In this document: positions 4,100 through 43,074 of the stretch, piece after piece
How positions within the stretch are numbered: the first letter of the stretch is position 1
Layout of the letters: every line of letters begins with the position of its first letter
Assembly: GCA_018303945.1 (NCBI GenBank)
Contig: JAGVXD010000003.1
Location: forward strand, 1-45,733
From: Candidatus Pacearchaeota archaeon
GTDB lineage: Archaea > Nanobdellota > Nanobdellia > Pacearchaeales > GW2011-AR1
Reading direction: 5' to 3'
DNA: 45,733 nucleotides
The notes under the pieces: generated by a model
Databases searched by the model: none
What the model saw: only the letters and a program-made list of their open reading frames with translations
Told to the model about the DNA's origin: nothing
Program-made: the position numbers and the translations under genes

Positions 4100-5578
4100 C
4101 TAGAAGTAATCACTAACAGGTTTACCATCAATTTCAAGGAAAGCGCGGCGTCCATTGATTTCATAATATTTATCGAAATCTTCCAATCCAATTACATTGT
4201 TAACCTGAAGCCTTAATTCGCGCTCCTCAACATTTTCAGTATATGGGGCTGCGTTTACATGTATCTCGCTTAATGTTCCATATCCTCTTTTTCCAGATAT
4301 TTCATAAATGCGAATGTATCTTGCTGTGACTTCATCTACATCATAATTTGAGTACGACCCTCCATTTACAATTGTATGTTCTGAGCCAACCCTATTCCAT
4401 GTGCGGGCATCTGAAGAAACTTGAATCTCAAAATTGATTGGTGTGTCCCAGATAAAAGCATTGAGCTCAACGGCGTTTATGCATTTCTTGCTGCCAAGGT
4501 CAAAGTAAATCCATTTGGGATAAGCATCATTGGTATCGCCAAACCAGTGAGTATCTGCGTTGCCATCTATTGCATTGGCGGCACGATAATTATTAAATTG
4601 GCTGCTTGCGACCGCCTCTCTTGGAGAAATGCGGGAATAAGAGCCGCAATAAAATAATGGCTTCTCGGGTGAAGAAGAGATTGTTTCTGATTGAACAATT
4701 GAATTGGTATTATTTTCTGATTGTGCTTGCTCACCAGCCGAATTTACCTGAGAAGGTGCCGGATTGCATGCTCCTTGATTGCATCCTGCAATGCATGATG
4801 TAGTGTTAAGTGAAACGTTGATTTCTTCACATGAGTATTCGTATAGGCCAGATCCGGAGTAACATCCGTCCTCGTAAAAACTAGAAGACCCGTTTGCATT
4901 GGTTATATTGACTATTCCCTTTACAAAATAATTCTTTCCACCATCCGAATCGAAACAATTTCTTCCAGGTACTGAAACAGAAGAAGAGTTAGAAGAATTT
5001 TCCTGCGGTGCCGTTGGTGTAGATATATTTGCCGCATTAAGTTTTATTTCTGTTAGAGTACCGTAAATCTTATCTCCTGATGACTCATATACTCTCAAAT
5101 ATCTTGCCTTAACAGAGGAAAATGATTGCGTCAAGAAAGAGTTTCCTTGTGAGACTGACCAGTCAGAAACAATTGTTGTCCAGGCAGTTGCATCGTTGGA
5201 AGTTTGAATAGTTACAGTAATTGGAAGGAAAAACTGGAAGAAGTATAAGTCTGCTGAATTTATGCATTTCCTGCTGCCAAGGTCAAAGTAAATCCATTTG
5301 GGATAAGGAACAGAGCTATTGCCAATCCAATGAGTATTTATATTTTTATCTATTGCCTGTGAAGGGCTGTAAGATGAAGAGAGAATGTCGCTGGCTGTAG
5401 CTGTAATCGGAGTCAGAGAATAGTATTCTCCGCATGTTTCCTCTTCCGAAGTTACTTGTCCGGTTATTTTGCCTCCGAAAATTTGCTTGAAAAATGAAGC
5501 GAAATTTATGGCAGTAGCGAATGTAGTTAGTACCAGAAGAGAAATACATAATATGATAACCACCCCTGAAAGTCGCAT
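4100..5578 (-). CDS. cell-surface protein with two F5/8 type C (discoidin) domains
   Basis: The 492-residue product starts with a signal/anchor segment (LSGVVIILCISLLVLTTFAT). Two F5/8 type C carbohydrate-binding domains follow, at about residues 45-190 and 310-465. Each has the pattern SQAID/NAIDxNxxTHW, YPKWIYFDLG, and a closing ARYxRxYExSG...GTLxEI. Between them sits a Cys-rich segment (CFDSDGGKNYF ... GCNQGACN) of a kind seen in surface proteins. I take the ATG at 5578, not 5650, because a TATA box (5601-5610) lies 27 nt before it and the upstream start would overlap rpo6. It probably binds glycans outside the cell. Confidence 0.88.
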   Translation of the reverse strand: MRLSGVVIILCISLLVLTTFATAINFASFFKQIFGGKITGQVTSEEETCGEYYSLTPITATASDILSSSYSPSQAIDKNINTHWIGNSSVPYPKWIYFDLGSRKCINSADLYFFQFFLPITVTIQTSNDATAWTTIVSDWSVSQGNSFLTQSFSSVKARYLRVYESSGDKIYGTLTEIKLNAANISTPTAPQENSSNSSSVSVPGRNCFDSDGGKNYFVKGIVNITNANGSSSFYEDGCYSGSGLYEYSCEEINVSLNTTSCIAGCNQGACNPAPSQVNSAGEQAQSENNTNSIVQSETISSSPEKPLFYCGSYSRISPREAVASSQFNNYRAANAIDGNADTHWFGDTNDAYPKWIYFDLGSKKCINAVELNAFIWDTPINFEIQVSSDARTWNRVGSEHTIVNGGSYSNYDVDEVTARYIRIYEISGKRGYGTLSEIHVNAAPYTENVEERELRLQVNNVIGLEDFDKYYEINGRRAFLEIDGKPVSDYF

Positions 5579-5599
5579 TAAAAGAAAGACGCTTAATTC

Positions 5600-5610
5600 T
5601 TTATAAATAT
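5600..5610 (-). promoter_or_regulatory. TATA box of the discoidin gene
   Basis: ATATTTATAA on the minus strand lies in the short gap after rpo6, about 27 nt before the ATG at 5578, so a leaderless transcript is expected. It decides the start codon of that gene. Confidence 0.55.
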
Positions 5611-5624
5611 TTGCTTGCAATTTA

Positions 5625-5990
5625 TTATTCTTCACTTGGAGGAGTCTCAACTTCTATGTCTTCTTCCTCTACAAGACCGAGCTCTCCCGCATCCTCTACA
5701 ATCTCTTTCTCAACTTCTTGTTCCTTTGCTACAATCTCCTCATCTGATATCTTCTCTTCTTTGACAGAAACGAGTTTGTCCTTGCGCTTCTGGGGAAGAG
5801 GGCGGTTTATTGTAATTGGAAGAGCTCCTGCATTAAATTCATATTCTGCAATCTTTAAAGCATCGTATTTGAAAGACTTTAAGTTTTCTTCGCTTATCTT
5901 CACTAAAAGGGGGGCGTCCATTGCAATCTGCAATGCTCTCGCTCCTAAAATCCTGGCTATTTCATATTTAGTGAAGTTTTCTTTCATCAT
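5625..5990 (-). CDS. rpoK: DNA-directed RNA polymerase subunit Rpo6 (RpoK)
   Basis: Residues about 6-66 match archaeal Rpo6/eukaryotic RPB6: [21 protein letters not shown], then [19 protein letters not shown]. The subunit helps assemble the polymerase clamp region. Archaeal Rpo6 is usually about 55-90 residues. This one continues with about 55 further residues that are strongly acidic (runs of E and D, ending ETPPSEE). Either of two adjacent ATGs (5990 or 5987) could be used. It follows the rrp42 stop by eight bases, so it probably rides on the exosome operon. Confidence 0.92.
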
Positions 5991-10664: not shown

Positions 10665-12050
10665 TTATGCAGCCATCTTCTTAAGAGCTGGATGCATATC
10701 TACTGCGTGCTGTTGAGCAACGTTCTGATAAAGTTGGTACATAATCATGACTGCCAATAAGATAGCCGTTCCTGATGTAAGGGCTCCGAGAGAGTCTGTT
10801 AATGCTGCAAGAAGGCCTATTGCAAGACCGCCCATTATTGTCAGAGGCATTATATAACGGCTTAATATTGCTTCTAAAACTCTTTCATCTTTTCTAAATC
10901 CGGGAAGCTGTAAACCTGAAGAAATGATGCGTTTTGCCTGATTTGATGCATCCATACCGGAAGTCTTAACCCAGAACACAGCAAATAAAACTGAAAGAGC
11001 CATGTAAAATATCAGATGGGAGAACGCCTGCACTATCTGTATGCCCTGCAAGCTTCCTTTAATTAAAGATTCCAATAAATTTGAGGTACCAAGCCAATAG
11101 GCAAATCCGGAGATTGGTTGACCTTGGGAAAATCCTCCAAATATTGTGGGTCGCCCCAGCCAGTTTTCAACTAGTCCTCCAAGAAGCTGAAGATTAGCAA
11201 TTAAAGCAGCAACTAATATTACTGGAATATTTGACGCATAGAAAAATGCCAACGGCCATTTAACATTATAACCTCTTAGCCTATCGTAAGAGAGAGGTAT
11301 CTCTACTTTTAAGCTCTGGGCCCAAACTACTGCAAGGAAAATTATTGCTGTCACCGCTATCGTTGCTATTGCAAGAAGAGCTTCTCGTGGAGCTCCGTTT
11401 ATAACTGACTGCAAGACTATTAGCACTGCTCCCGCACAAGGAGTGTTGGAAAAGTCCGCAAGACAATTCTCTCCGGCAGCCCCTATGAATTGAAAGAGTC
11501 CTGTGAATAGTCTCCAAGCTACTCCAGCTACGATAAATATGGAAACTCCAGAACCAAATCCCCATTTGGTAGTTACCTCGTCCATCAACATTATAGCAAG
11601 TCCGCCCAGAATAAGCTGGAAAATTACAACTCCAGCTAAGCCCTGGCCTGCCTGCAGACCTCCCATGAGGACATAAACTAAAGCTTCAAAAACGATAAAG
11701 ACCAACACTCCAAGTTTCTGCAAACCTTGAAAATATCTTTTGCCTTCGGGCTGTGACGTGTCTATCTTAAGAATTCCTGAACCAACAAGAAGCTGGAGAA
11801 TAATAGAAGCCATAACTATCGGACCTATACCAAGACTTATTATGCTTCCAAAATCTGTTCCAAGAATTATTGCAAGATACTGAAAACGCTCAAGAGAATT
11901 TGCAGCAAGCCCGAATAAAGGTATGTTTGCAAGAATGAAAAAAGCCCCTAGAATAATTAGAGTCCACTTTAATTTTGTGTTAAAAGCCAGCTTCTTTTCT
12001 ACCGGGGGCTTCACCTCCGGCAGATTATAGAGGATATTTTTAATATTCAT
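10665..12050 (-). CDS. secY: preprotein translocase subunit SecY
   Basis: The 461-residue protein has about ten membrane helices. Recognisable SecY features are the region around GSIISLGIGPIVMASIILQLL (helix 2 and plug-adjacent), the cytoplasmic loop with LKVEIPLSYDRLRGYNVKWPL, and PGFRKDERVLEAILSRYI near the C terminus. It forms the protein-conducting channel with SecE. The gene normally follows rpl15 directly in the spc operon; here 1.25 kb of unrelated DNA intervenes and secY has its own leaderless promoter 25 nt before the ATG at 12050. Confidence 0.96.
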   Translation of the reverse strand: MNIKNILYNLPEVKPPVEKKLAFNTKLKWTLIILGAFFILANIPLFGLAANSLERFQYLAIILGTDFGSIISLGIGPIVMASIILQLLVGSGILKIDTSQPEGKRYFQGLQKLGVLVFIVFEALVYVLMGGLQAGQGLAGVVIFQLILGGLAIMLMDEVTTKWGFGSGVSIFIVAGVAWRLFTGLFQFIGAAGENCLADFSNTPCAGAVLIVLQSVINGAPREALLAIATIAVTAIIFLAVVWAQSLKVEIPLSYDRLRGYNVKWPLAFFYASNIPVILVAALIANLQLLGGLVENWLGRPTIFGGFSQGQPISGFAYWLGTSNLLESLIKGSLQGIQIVQAFSHLIFYMALSVLFAVFWVKTSGMDASNQAKRIISSGLQLPGFRKDERVLEAILSRYIMPLTIMGGLAIGLLAALTDSLGALTSGTAILLAVMIMYQLYQNVAQQHAVDMHPALKKMAA

Positions 12051-12056
12051 TGTTTA

Positions 12057-12188
12057 GTATATAGAAAGCTAGTTTAAAAAGATGTTGGGCGGCTGAGATG
12101 TAAAGTTAAAGGGAGCTAAATGCTTCTTGCTTTTTTCTTCCAAGTTAATTCTCCAACCTATAGTTTTTTAAACTAGCTTTCTATATAC
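12057..12188. repeat. 24-bp perfect inverted repeat carrying two facing-out promoters
   Basis: The arms 12057-12080 and 12165-12188 are exact reverse complements over 24 bases and are separated by 84 bases. Each arm contains the box TTTTTAAACTAG. In the left arm, read on the minus strand, it is the TATA box of secY (start codon at 12050). In the right arm, read on the plus strand, it is the TATA box of the 258-aa gene (start codon at 12194). Because the identity runs well beyond the TATA box and down to the start-site region, one promoter looks copied from the other. Confidence 0.9.
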
Positions 12189-12193
12189 AAGGT

Positions 12194-12970
12194 ATGTTAA
12201 GTAAAACCTCAAAAATCCTTTTAGGATTTTATGCATTTTTGTTGTTGCTAATCTTACTACCTTTCAGAGAGTTTGGGATTTTTTTGCTTATTGGAACAGG
12301 ATTATTTACTTTTGTTACCTCAATATTTCTTGCAAATGATATTAAAAAATTAGAAAATTCAATTACTTCGAGAATCATTAGTATTGTATTAATTAGTTTA
12401 ATTTTTTATTCTGCAATTATATTATTTTATGGTTTAGGAAACATTGGTACTGGTGACATGGGTTTAGTATTTATGTTTACTTTATTTAGTTATTTAATTT
12501 TCTTAGCATTATCTTTAACCATTGGGATAATCTTAGTCATTATTAATAAAAAAATGACTATTGAAAATAAACCAAATAGAATCTTATCAACTTTCTTAAT
12601 TATTATATTAGTTCTATTATTTTATAGTTTTGCGGTGTCTGGAATAGCTAGAATAACCGGTAGCCCGGGATTATGCTCAATGCATATTGAGATGAAAAGC
12701 AATTCTTTTATTTTTGTCAAAGGAATGCAAGACTCTTGCATTCTCAGAGTTGCTTTAGATACTTCAAATGTTGAATATTGTAAAATAATAACTGATATTG
12801 GAAATGAAGAGAGAAATATATGCATTCTGAATGTTGCAAGAAATTTGAGAGATGTGGATATATGTTATCAAATATCTACAAGTAGTGAATGGTTGAGTAA
12901 ATGTGTTGAATATATCACTGATAGGAAAAGCCCTGGTTATTACTATGAAGACGGAGTGGGAAAATACTGA
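12194..12970 (+). CDS. membrane protein with Cys-repeat C-terminal domain, 258 aa
   Basis: The N-terminal 160 residues hold about five hydrophobic helices (about 7-25, 27-45, 59-80, 92-117, 130-152). The C-terminal 100 residues hold regularly spaced cysteines in a repeated pattern: C-x4-A, about 9 residues, C-x-I, about 9 residues, C-x4-A. That pattern probably makes a disulfide-bonded domain outside the cell. No family is named with confidence. The gene is more AT-rich than its neighbours and lies on the opposite strand inside the spc operon. The promoter copy of secY fixes its start at 12194. Confidence 0.75.
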   Translation: MLSKTSKILLGFYAFLLLLILLPFREFGIFLLIGTGLFTFVTSIFLANDIKKLENSITSRIISIVLISLIFYSAIILFYGLGNIGTGDMGLVFMFTLFSYLIFLALSLTIGIILVIINKKMTIENKPNRILSTFLIIILVLLFYSFAVSGIARITGSPGLCSMHIEMKSNSFIFVKGMQDSCILRVALDTSNVEYCKIITDIGNEERNICILNVARNLRDVDICYQISTSSEWLSKCVEYITDRKSPGYYYEDGVGKY

Positions 12971-12990
12971 TTAATTAAGAAGTAAACCTA

Positions 12991-13082
12991 TAGAGAACTG
13001 CGCAGGTTAGATTACATATTTATACACAGTTCTCTAATGGATAACTGCCTCTCGTTGTCATCTAAGCAATGCAGTTATCCAT
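12991..13082. repeat. two adjacent inverted repeats with related arms
   Basis: The first repeat pairs 12991-13000 with 13027-13036 (TAGAGAACTG/CAGTTCTCTA). The second starts at the very next base and pairs 13037-13048 with 13071-13082 (ATGGATAACTGC/GCAGTTATCCAT). Both are perfect. All four arms share the core AACTG/CAGTT. They lie just after the stop codon of the 258-aa gene. They could be a terminator region, paired protein-binding sites or the trace of a mobile element end. Confidence 0.75.
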
Positions 13083-13299
13083 ATTGAATTACTCAGAGAA
13101 GAAATGTATAAATGATGCCACTAAGGGATATTTTAATTAGATAAAATAATATTGCCAATTTAAAGAATGAATTTTGCCAGCCTGATTATATTAACTTATA
13201 TATTTATGTCAAAGTGTCTGACAAACCACGCACTTCAGTGCGTGGAACACTTTGGGCACGAGAAAATCCTCTGGACTTTTTAATCTGATACTTGGAGAA
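13083..13299. other. gene-free end of the secY-rpl15 insertion
   Basis: Apart from the hairpin at 13210-13254 the stretch is AT-rich and has no frame longer than about ten codons starting with ATG. A TATA-like TTATATATTTA at 13195-13205 lies just ahead of the hairpin, so a short non-coding transcript is conceivable but unsupported. Confidence 0.3.
13210..13254. repeat. strong nested hairpin, possible IS200/IS605-type end
   Basis: The inner stem is CCACGCACT (13226-13234) with AGTGCGTGG (13237-13245), closed by a TTCA-type loop. The outer stem pairs CAAAGTGT (13210-13217) with ACACTTTG (13247-13254), leaving an eight-base bulge on one side. Subterminal hairpins with a TTCA loop are typical of IS200/IS605 elements, but no transposase or tnpB frame is present. 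As it lies between two convergent genes it could equally be a bidirectional terminator. Confidence 0.6.
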
Positions 13300-13737
13300 T
13301 TATTCTTCAGAATCTTTGGTTTTAAGTATTATCTCGCTTCCAGCTTGCTTTGCCTTCTCGAGGGCTGATAGTGAAGCGGCGGAAGCTCTTATCTTTACCT
13401 TTGAAGATATCTCTCCATCGCTTAGTATTTTGTAGCCAGTTAGGTCAAGCTCGTCTTTGTCCTTCTTAAAAGAATTTAATCTTAGCTCTATATCTCCTAA
13501 ATTGATAATTTTTAGTTTGGGATGTTTCCTGCCTCTCCTTAGAGTTTTTGACTTGCCAAAATAATTATTGCCATATAAATTTATTATGAGTGACTTCCTC
13601 TGGTCTCCCCGCTTGCCTGTGCCAGCCATTCCGTAACCTCCTCTATTGCCAGACCCCCTTGTACGTTCTTTCGCACCCCTTCCATGTGTCTGGCTTCCCT
13701 TATAACGAATTGCCTTTCGTCTTTTCTTAACTCTCAT
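13300..13737 (-). CDS. rpl15: 50S ribosomal protein L15 (uL15)
   Basis: The N-terminal part (KRRKAIRYKGSQTHGRGAKERTRGSGNRGGYGMAG) is the glycine- and arginine-rich extension typical of archaeal uL15, and the C-terminal half has the fold ending in a K-A-x-A-x-S-x-x-A pattern. The length of 145 residues is normal. It is the last gene of the long ribosomal operon, overlapping the L30 stop by one base. SecY, its normal next neighbour, is displaced by an insertion. Confidence 0.94.
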   Translation of the reverse strand: MRVKKRRKAIRYKGSQTHGRGAKERTRGSGNRGGYGMAGTGKRGDQRKSLIINLYGNNYFGKSKTLRRGRKHPKLKIINLGDIELRLNSFKKDKDELDLTGYKILSDGEISSKVKIRASAASLSALEKAKQAGSEIILKTKDSEE

Positions 13738-40119: not shown

Positions 40120-43074
40120 ATGGTGACACAGATAATTACTTCCCCGGCTATTCCTGCTCTGCCAAAGGTAGAAGACAAAAAGAAATTAGACGTTAGATAT
40201 ATGCTTATTGCCCCATATGCTTCAGCTCATATTCACTGGGATAATAAACTGGGGGAATTGGTTTACGAAGTTGAGGAGCCCGTTCTGAATGATTATGAAG
40301 ATGCTGTACTAAAAAAAATAGAAGATGCTATGACTGAAGTGGTAAATGTCAATGTTGCCGTAGAGAAAACTCTTGAAGCAACTACATCATATCTTGACAA
40401 AACAGCAAGGCTATTAATAGATGAATTAAACATCCGTATAAACACCGACTCCTACAATAAGATATTCTACTATCTTTTCAGGGATTTTATAGGACTTAAC
40501 GAAGTTGACCCTCTCTTAAGAGATTACTTCATAGAGGATATAGAGTGCAACGGCACGGATACTCCGATATATGTAATCCATAGAATCTATAGAAATCTTA
40601 GAACAAACCTTGCATATAAAGATGTCGAGAAACTGGCCAGTTTCGTAGAAAAATTAGCACAAAGGGCAGGGAGATATATATCATACGCTCAACCGTTGCT
40701 TGACGGAGCATTGCCTGATGGAAGCAGAGTAAATGCATCTTACACTAAAGACGTTACATCGAAAGGACCGACATTTACAATTAGAAAGTTCACTAAGATT
40801 CCTTGGACACCCATACAATTAATATCATTTAACTCATTGAGCCCTGAAATGTTAGCTTATTTCTGGATTCTGCTCCAGTATAAATCAAACATACTGATTG
40901 CTGGGGGGACAGGGTCCGGTAAGACCACTTTACTAAATGCACTTGCTTTTTTCATTCCGCCGGAAGCGAGAGTCGTGAGTATAGAAGATAGTGTGACGGG
41001 AGACTCCAAAATAATAATAAGAAAAGACGGAAAGATAAGAGAAATTACAATAAAAGAATTTGTAGATAATAAAATTGATGCTGAAGTAATGAGTCTGAAT
41101 AAAGAAGGCAAGGTTATCTGGGTTAAACCTTCAAATTATATTAAGCATAATGTAAAAAAAGACATTTACGAGGTAACTACCTATACGGGAAGGAAAGTAA
41201 AAGTAACTCAAGACCACTCATTATTTACACTTGGAGATGACAGTTCACTTATAGATATAAAGCCATGTGAATTAGAAGAAGGAAAATCCTTTATTGCAGT
41301 TCCACGAATTCTTCCTATAGAAGGAGAAGAAATTAAAGAAATAAACCTTATAGAGCATCTTGAGCATTTTGAAGAGTATTTTATAGAGGGAAAACCTCTG
41401 AAGAAGATATTTGAAAATTACTCGTGTGAAAATCTAAGAGTTGAAAAGGAAAGATATGGGTGGTGGAAAAGCCATAATATGATGCAGATTAAGGAGTTTA
41501 GAAAGTTAAAAATGGACTTCTCTTATAATGAACTTAAGGAGATGAAAATTAAAAGTCAGAATAATTCTTCAGTACCGGTAATATTTGATGTAAGCAAGGA
41601 GTTTCTTGAATTTTGCGGGCTTTGGATAGAATCTAGGGGTTATGATAATTATGATGATAATTCAGCCATAATGAATGAAGAATGCGGAGAAGTATTCAGA
41701 AGAATTTCTGATTATGCTGGATTAAAATATTCTCTTATAGGTGGATTTTCTACAAGAATGAAAGATAGTGTTTTGTATAATCTGATGAAGAATGTAATCA
41801 AGATGGATGGATATGCCAAGAAAATCCCTGAATTTATTTTTGGATTGTCCAATGAACAAATAAAGCATTTTATGAGGGGATATTTCAGCGCTAATGGTGA
41901 TGTTAAAAAATATGAAGTTTCCTGCGCATCGCAAAGTTATGAGCTTTTGAGAGGTATTCAGACTATGTTACTGCGACTTGGCATAATATCCAAAATTAAT
42001 GATTTTGAAAGAAAAGACAAGTGCATGAATATGAGCATTTCTGAAAGCAAGAATGTTGAAGAATTCAAGAAAATAGGTTTCCTGCAAAAGAGAAAAAATG
42101 CAAAATTGTGGTTATTTGGCGCAAGAGCACACCATGTAAATTCTGATATTGTTCCATTGCATATTGCACAGTTGGAGAGGCTTAGCAAAATAGCAGCTAT
42201 AAGGCTTAAGCATGGATTAATGCAAAGGCAGATAATTGGAAGAGAGTATATGCAAAGAATAGCTCCTGCTGGCTCTGAATTTAACGATCTTTCCCATAAT
42301 GAAATACTATGGGATAAAGTAAAAAGTGTAAAGAAAGTAAGCAGTGATTCAATAGAAGTATTTGACTTGAGCATCCCAATATATGAGAAATTTTTGTGCA
42401 ATAATATTCTTGTGCATAACACGAGGGAGATTAACCTCCCTAGAGAAAACTGGCTCCCTGCTGTTGCCCGGCCTTCTGTTGGATTAGGCAAGATTGGAGA
42501 AGTAGACTTGTTTGCTCTCTTAAAAAGCTCCTTCAGACAAACTCCTGATTATCTTATAGTTGGAGAAGTAAGAGGAAAAGAAGCTTTCGTCCTATTCCAA
42601 GGGATGGCATCTGGACACTCTTCATTAAGTACTATGCATGCGGACTCTGTGGACACATTAATAAGAAGACTTCAAACTCCACCCATAGAACTTTCGCCTA
42701 CATTGGTAAACTCGCTGGACTGTGTAGTTATAGCCACACATGCCGTTGTCAATCAGCATGAAACAAGAAGAATAAGGGAAGTAGTGGAGATTGTCAATGT
42801 AAACAAGGACGGAACTGCGCTTATAAATACCCCTTTAATATGGGATCCTTCAAGTGATGCATTTTACTTCAAGAAGCAAAGTAAGGTTTTTGAGAAAATT
42901 GCCAACAGACATGGAATATCAATTGATGAATTACACGGAGAGTTTACCAGGAGAACAAAGCTATTATATGCACTCTATCAGGGAAAGGTCTTTGGGTTTG
43001 ATGATGTTGGAAGAATAATAAATGAATACTACAAGAATCCTAATGCTGTATTGTCACGATATGGTATTTCTTAG
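40120..43074 (+). CDS. type II/IV secretion (VirB11/PilB-like) ATPase with an intein
   Basis: The 984-residue precursor contains a 507-residue ATPase interrupted by an intein at residues 291-767. The ATPase has an N-terminal domain (about 1-230), Walker A AGGTGSGKTT (261-270), RVVSIED just before the intein, then TREINLPRENWLPAVARPS, the Walker B region DYLIVGEVRG (810-819) and SGHSSLSTMHADS with the His box. It powers assembly of pili or archaella and belongs with the pilins and two TadC-like proteins around it. Host residues around the insertion join as SIED-TREINLP, which matches uninterrupted relatives. Confidence 0.93.
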   Translation: MVTQIITSPAIPALPKVEDKKKLDVRYMLIAPYASAHIHWDNKLGELVYEVEEPVLNDYEDAVLKKIEDAMTEVVNVNVAVEKTLEATTSYLDKTARLLIDELNIRINTDSYNKIFYYLFRDFIGLNEVDPLLRDYFIEDIECNGTDTPIYVIHRIYRNLRTNLAYKDVEKLASFVEKLAQRAGRYISYAQPLLDGALPDGSRVNASYTKDVTSKGPTFTIRKFTKIPWTPIQLISFNSLSPEMLAYFWILLQYKSNILIAGGTGSGKTTLLNALAFFIPPEARVVSIEDSVTGDSKIIIRKDGKIREITIKEFVDNKIDAEVMSLNKEGKVIWVKPSNYIKHNVKKDIYEVTTYTGRKVKVTQDHSLFTLGDDSSLIDIKPCELEEGKSFIAVPRILPIEGEEIKEINLIEHLEHFEEYFIEGKPLKKIFENYSCENLRVEKERYGWWKSHNMMQIKEFRKLKMDFSYNELKEMKIKSQNNSSVPVIFDVSKEFLEFCGLWIESRGYDNYDDNSAIMNEECGEVFRRISDYAGLKYSLIGGFSTRMKDSVLYNLMKNVIKMDGYAKKIPEFIFGLSNEQIKHFMRGYFSANGDVKKYEVSCASQSYELLRGIQTMLLRLGIISKINDFERKDKCMNMSISESKNVEEFKKIGFLQKRKNAKLWLFGARAHHVNSDIVPLHIAQLERLSKIAAIRLKHGLMQRQIIGREYMQRIAPAGSEFNDLSHNEILWDKVKSVKKVSSDSIEVFDLSIPIYEKFLCNNILVHNTREINLPRENWLPAVARPSVGLGKIGEVDLFALLKSSFRQTPDYLIVGEVRGKEAFVLFQGMASGHSSLSTMHADSVDTLIRRLQTPPIELSPTLVNSLDCVVIATHAVVNQHETRRIREVVEIVNVNKDGTALINTPLIWDPSSDAFYFKKQSKVFEKIANRHGISIDELHGEFTRRTKLLYALYQGKVFGFDDVGRIINEYYKNPNAVLSRYGIS
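40990..42420 (+). mobile_element. intein in the secretion ATPase
   Basis: The intein runs from Ser291 to Asn767 (477 residues). Splicing blocks are present: A (SVTGDSKIIIRKDGKIREI), B (GRKVKVTQDHSLFTL, with the T-x-x-H), F and G (VFDLSIPIYEKFLCNNILVHN), with Thr768 as the first C-extein residue. The middle looks like a LAGLIDADG endonuclease: FCGLWIESRG (498-507) and FMRGYFSANG (584-593). Each motif lacks the catalytic acidic residue (Ser and Asn in its place), so DNA cutting is probably lost although splicing residues are intact. Confidence 0.92.

Follow-up and report, generated by a model that had tools for sequence, protein, structure and literature searches.

Miniature inverted-repeat transposable elements (MITEs) are short units bounded by perfect terminal inverted repeats. 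In yeast, template switching homogenizes the arms of inverted repeats, extending them, for example, from 4 to 11 bp or from 5 to 16 bp, and, according to the same work, the template-switch idea was first suggested in bacteriophage (PMC8604942). In the BRE-TATA-BRE promoters of Pyrococcus furiosus, a single TATA box serves both directions, with start sites approximately 50 bp apart (PMC6640164).

The locus described here resembles each of these systems in part. It lies in a window of 45,733 nucleotides (the whole stretch of DNA that was analysed) from a draft genome of 803,700 bases in 22 contigs, 86.9% complete; the closest named matches of its SecY come from Candidatus Pacearchaeota metagenome-assembled genomes (71 to 79% identity), which makes it very likely that the host is a pacearchaeon (DPANN archaea). 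The minus-strand order is S5, L30, L15, an intervening stretch of 1,249 bp, and secY, with the gene for a 258-aa protein placed inside this gap on the plus strand (Table 1). The two genes diverge, and their ATGs (12050 on the minus strand for secY, 12194 on the plus strand for the 258-aa gene) are 144 bp apart. A repeat search of the window recovered, between these start codons, two arms of 24 nt that are 100% complementary and 84 nt apart; the exact reverse complementarity claimed in the preliminary description was reproduced at all 24 of 24 positions.

Table 1. Features of the secY locus in the window
Feature	Coordinates	Strand	Remarks
secY, SecY/Sec61 alpha translocon subunit, 461 aa	10665..12050	-	Pfam PF00344, NCBIfam PRK08568
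Arm 1, secY core promoter, TATA box to -7; probable original	12057..12080	-	
TTTTTAAA, TATA box of arm 1	12080-12073	-	
ATC directly upstream of the secY TATA box	12081..12083	-	Common in relatives' secY promoters, absent from the other arm
Inter-arm spacer, 84 bp	12081..12164		Single copy, without Rfam match
Arm 2, exactly reverse complementary to arm 1, core promoter of the 258-aa gene; probable copy	12165..12188	+	
258-aa protein gene	12194..12970	+	Hydrophobic segments, six Cys; no Pfam or PHROG family
Stretch separating L15 and secY, 1,249 bp	12051..13299	.	Genes adjacent or nearly so in many relatives
Ribosomal protein L15 gene, secY's normal upstream neighbor	13300..13737	-	Assigned by similarity and context

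An Rfam search of positions 11900 to 13400 returned no credible match. Two dispersed repeats lie between the 258-aa gene and L15. One of about 97 bp (12989 to 13085) is REP/BIME-like, with two adjacent hairpins (stems AGAGAACTG.../GGATAACTGC...), and recurs, whole or as halves, at about a dozen further sites in the genome. The other (13195 to 13279) contains the strong palindrome CCACGCACTTCAGTGCGTGG, has roughly a dozen other genomic copies, and could be a non-autonomous element with a subterminal hairpin. Neither repeat overlaps or shares sequence with the inverted repeat, and both were rejected as its cause. Elsewhere in the window, positions 4100 to 5650 encode a protein whose two F5/8-type C (discoidin) domains derive from an internal duplication (84% identity over 98 bp), and positions 40120 to 43074 hold a type II/IV secretion-type ATPase gene in which an intein bearing a LAGLIDADG endonuclease domain interrupts the P-loop domain region.

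The upstream regions of 211 predicted genes (419 kb) show a TATA signal rich in A+T between positions -29 and -22 relative to the start codon, which is, as judged from sequence, the mark of mostly leaderless transcription. The TATA box TTTTTAAA is positioned at -30 to -23 from the ATG of secY and at -29 to -22 from that of the 258-aa gene. With a TATA box 22 to 30 nt before the start codon, both arms fit an archaeal leaderless TATA promoter, in agreement with the earlier assignment of one arm to the TATA-to-start region of secY and of the other to the equivalent position before the 258-aa gene; when scored with a simple matrix, they rank 33rd and 68th among the 211 upstream regions. The predicted divergent transcription from archaeal TATA elements is reminiscent of BRE-TATA-BRE promoters; however, this locus has two TATA boxes approximately 90 bp apart, one per gene, with the ATGs 144 bp apart, and does not match a single bidirectional promoter of that type. 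Co-expression of the 258-aa gene with secY is plausible.

The 24-mer has two sites in the 803,700 bases, namely, the two arms, and no others even when three mismatches are allowed; at the same tolerance, two further places were found in 181 genomes of the family, and a search of viral contigs for the exact 24-mer gave no match. In 419 kb of the same genome, only three further perfect inverted repeats reach 14 bp with their arms no more than 200 bp apart, and the longest of them measures 16 bp, and the longest inverted repeat in a 1.15-Mb sample of this genome and its relatives, drawn from outside the window (spacers of 20 to 300 bp), was 17 bp. Comparison of 22,155 pairs of upstream regions from this genome gave a typical identity of about 10/24 and a best value of 18/24 among all other pairs, against 24/24 for this one; the longest other shared word (21 bp) came from two regions that do not form a divergent pair. 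No similar inverted repeat was observed among approximately 109 other divergent gene pairs sampled. Under a column-frequency model, two independent promoters would be identical over 24 bp with a probability of about 1e-12 per pair. Because the 24-mer is unique to the two arms and the next longest repeats reach 16 to 17 bp, chance is excluded as the origin of the repeat, and a shared promoter consensus alone is insufficient, given 24/24 against a maximum of 18/24 and the modeled probability; the preliminary description was right that the match lies far beyond chance. That two strong promoters converged on one consensus by chance, helped perhaps by some sequence preference of the lineage downstream of the TATA box, is a negligible explanation in view of the same figures.

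The direction of copying was approached through the secY promoters of related Pacearchaeota, in loci where secY stands apart from L15 or is preceded by a TATA box of its own. These promoters share TTTAAAAACTnnTTTTCT, often with ATC in front (e.g., L151, L113, L116, L188, and L146), and the secY promoter of the window, ATC-TTTTTAAACTAGCTTTCT, fits this pattern, with ATC present on the secY side only. The relatives' secY promoters match the 24-mer at a mean of 13.8/24 positions, compared with 12.1/24 for the other promoters of the window's own genome (Mann-Whitney P value of 7e-7), a similarity that partly reflects the TATA box, for which the relatives were selected. Their 5' flanks match the secY-side AACATC at 2.57/6 positions versus 1.68/6 for CTATAG of the other arm. 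Since the relatives match both the 24-mer and the flank better on the secY side, copying from secY to the 258-aa gene is the likelier direction; the secY arm was probably the source and the 258-aa arm the copy. Downstream of the secY TATA box, ACTnnTTTTCT is conserved across genera (e.g., L113, L116, L151, and L188) and may be a strong-promoter feature of the lineage. This conservation calls for a correction of the premise of the preliminary description that promoter identity normally decays outside the TATA box, as secY promoters keep the downstream motif even between genera.

The 258-aa protein has hydrophobic segments within residues 2 to 156 and cysteines at positions 161, 182, 196, 210, 224, and 237. 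No family was assigned to it by Pfam or PHROGs, and its NCBIfam match was unconvincing (13.5 bits against a cut-off of 934). Two distant relatives with the full architecture (25 to 30% identity) are found in genomes of the same family (G063 and G094); at the two loci inspected, they are not beside secY and do not have such a promoter. The C-terminal cysteine pattern is spread more widely within the class. Neither the GTDB genome contigs nor IMG/VR yielded relatives when scanned by peptide pattern, and tblastn against phage records gave no match. The G+C content of the gene is 27.5%, compared with a median of 36.7%, which places it in the lowest 1% of the genes sampled; its codon usage is typical of the genome. 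The earlier characterization of the gene as foreign-looking thus retains its low G+C content and is opposed by the typical codons, the relatives in the same archaeal family, and the failure to match phage. Because of the codons, the same-family relatives, and the lack of a virus link, it has the appearance of an accessory gene specific to a lineage of these archaea and is not clearly foreign.

In many relatives, secY follows L15 after 0 to 70 bp; elsewhere, the gap is gene-free or contains unrelated genes, and wide gaps mostly go with a separate promoter for secY. The 258-aa gene occupies this position in none of 80 named relative loci. Unrelated inserts were found in L005, L011, L013, L113, L127, L130, L148, L152, L166, and L192; the insert of L011 is a reverse transcriptase, that of L013 is a likely toxin-antitoxin pair, and those of L113, L127, L152, L166, and L192 are small unknown genes. 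Since different relatives hold different inserts, the junction appears to have been invaded repeatedly and, on this comparison, is a recurrent insertion point inside the ribosomal-protein operon of Pacearchaeota. One relative (L168) has a 15-bp perfect inverted repeat at its secY promoter (4822 to 4836 and 4976 to 4990), one of five such repeats in the 1.15 Mb; it was rejected as a parallel case, as its upstream arm has neither a TATA box nor a convincing gene, and it is probably due to chance.

With moderate confidence, we favor template switching between the divergent TATA promoters as the process that homogenized the promoter of the 258-aa gene to that of secY. A lineage-specific membrane-protein gene, divergent from secY and with its own TATA promoter, would have come between L15 and secY; because each divergent gene had a TATA box, the 144-bp gap would then already have contained a short imperfect inverted repeat made up of the two boxes. 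During replication, the polymerase would have switched template between the arms, so that a stretch of approximately 24 bp from the secY promoter overwrote the promoter of the 258-aa gene, the arms became identical, and the distances to the start codons remained unchanged; the two genes would now have core promoters of similar strength. The TATA boxes at -30 and -29 are indeed in unchanged register and at the usual position of the genome, as in-place replacement would leave them. This common register to both start codons makes template switching preferable to a transposable element or to capture during insertion: in-place conversion fits the spacing, and a randomly inserted copy is not expected to be correctly spaced from a start codon. 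As in the yeast cases, perfect arms would have been generated from imperfect ones, one arm templating the other; unlike those cases, the arms are divergent archaeal promoters, exceed them in length (24 bp) and in separation (84 bp), and are seen in their perfect form alone. The yeast study searched spacers of up to 70 bp, shorter than the 84 bp found here, and its events favored short spacers (PMC8604942). Template switching of this kind would be rare, since none of the approximately 109 other divergent pairs is similar. The event would have been recent, although the perfect identity of the arms fits recency and selection for identity alike.

An inverted duplication of the secY promoter at or after insertion of the 258-aa gene, followed by selection of a well-spaced start codon, is the main alternative, though an unlikely one. 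Such a promoter capture would suit a lineage-specific insertion directly beside secY and a copy that begins at the TATA box, but the copy would have to gain the same start-codon spacing within 1 nt, by chance or by selection, and no junction features of integration were found. The insertion mechanism capturing a host promoter that the preliminary description had envisaged found no counterpart, as neither a repeat family nor a recombinase nor a convincing target duplication was detected. It is more doubtful still, and highly improbable, that the 132-bp unit is a MITE-like element that supplied outward promoters to both genes. Like a MITE, it is short, with perfect terminal inverted repeats that enclose a core of 84 bp, and TATATA stands on both sides of a shorter 17-bp arm, where it could be read as a target-site duplication. 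However, the candidate duplications (TATATA, TATA, and ATAT) are palindromic, lie inside the arms only, with none at the outer ends, and are therefore indistinguishable from the repeat itself. In addition, unlike MITEs, the unit is single copy, without an independent target-site duplication or a related family in the genome; a search of the 181 family genomes for a full-length match to the 144-bp gap (E up to 1) recovered short AT-rich matches only, and the secY genes of relatives already have this promoter type.

The symmetry might instead be kept by selection, with a regulator or the basal machinery reading both arms and the two genes being co-regulated. The identical stretch between -30 and -7 before the two genes and the membrane-related nature of both products are in line with this reading, which we nevertheless consider improbable as the whole explanation, because selection on binding sites seldom enforces 24/24 identity and the inferred relatives of the 258-aa gene at the two inspected loci show no such arrangement; selection for co-regulation may, however, add to template switching or inverted duplication. 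An assembly or amplification chimera is very improbable. The draft is incomplete, and the lineage is known almost only from metagenome assemblies, but a 24-bp repeat is far shorter than sequencing reads, and amplification yields long inverted joins, whereas here the flanking genes are intact and their promoters correctly spaced.

The inverted repeat is genuine, well delimited, and unusual. On the favored reading, the locus offers one clear instance of a mutational process that is already known and not a new system, representing one event in one draft genome. That template switching more generally lets new genes take the promoter of an essential neighbor in compact archaeal genomes, with the accessory membrane protein here co-expressed with the Sec translocon, is a speculative extension to which we attach low confidence. 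If template-switch homogenization is the right explanation, a gene inserted beside an essential gene would have gained a promoter of ordinary strength by in-place conversion of its TATA region, a route that would require no mobile element and would preserve the spacing on which leaderless genes depend. The L15-secY junction of Pacearchaeota, with its recurrent inserts, would be a natural place for further cases of promoter copying.
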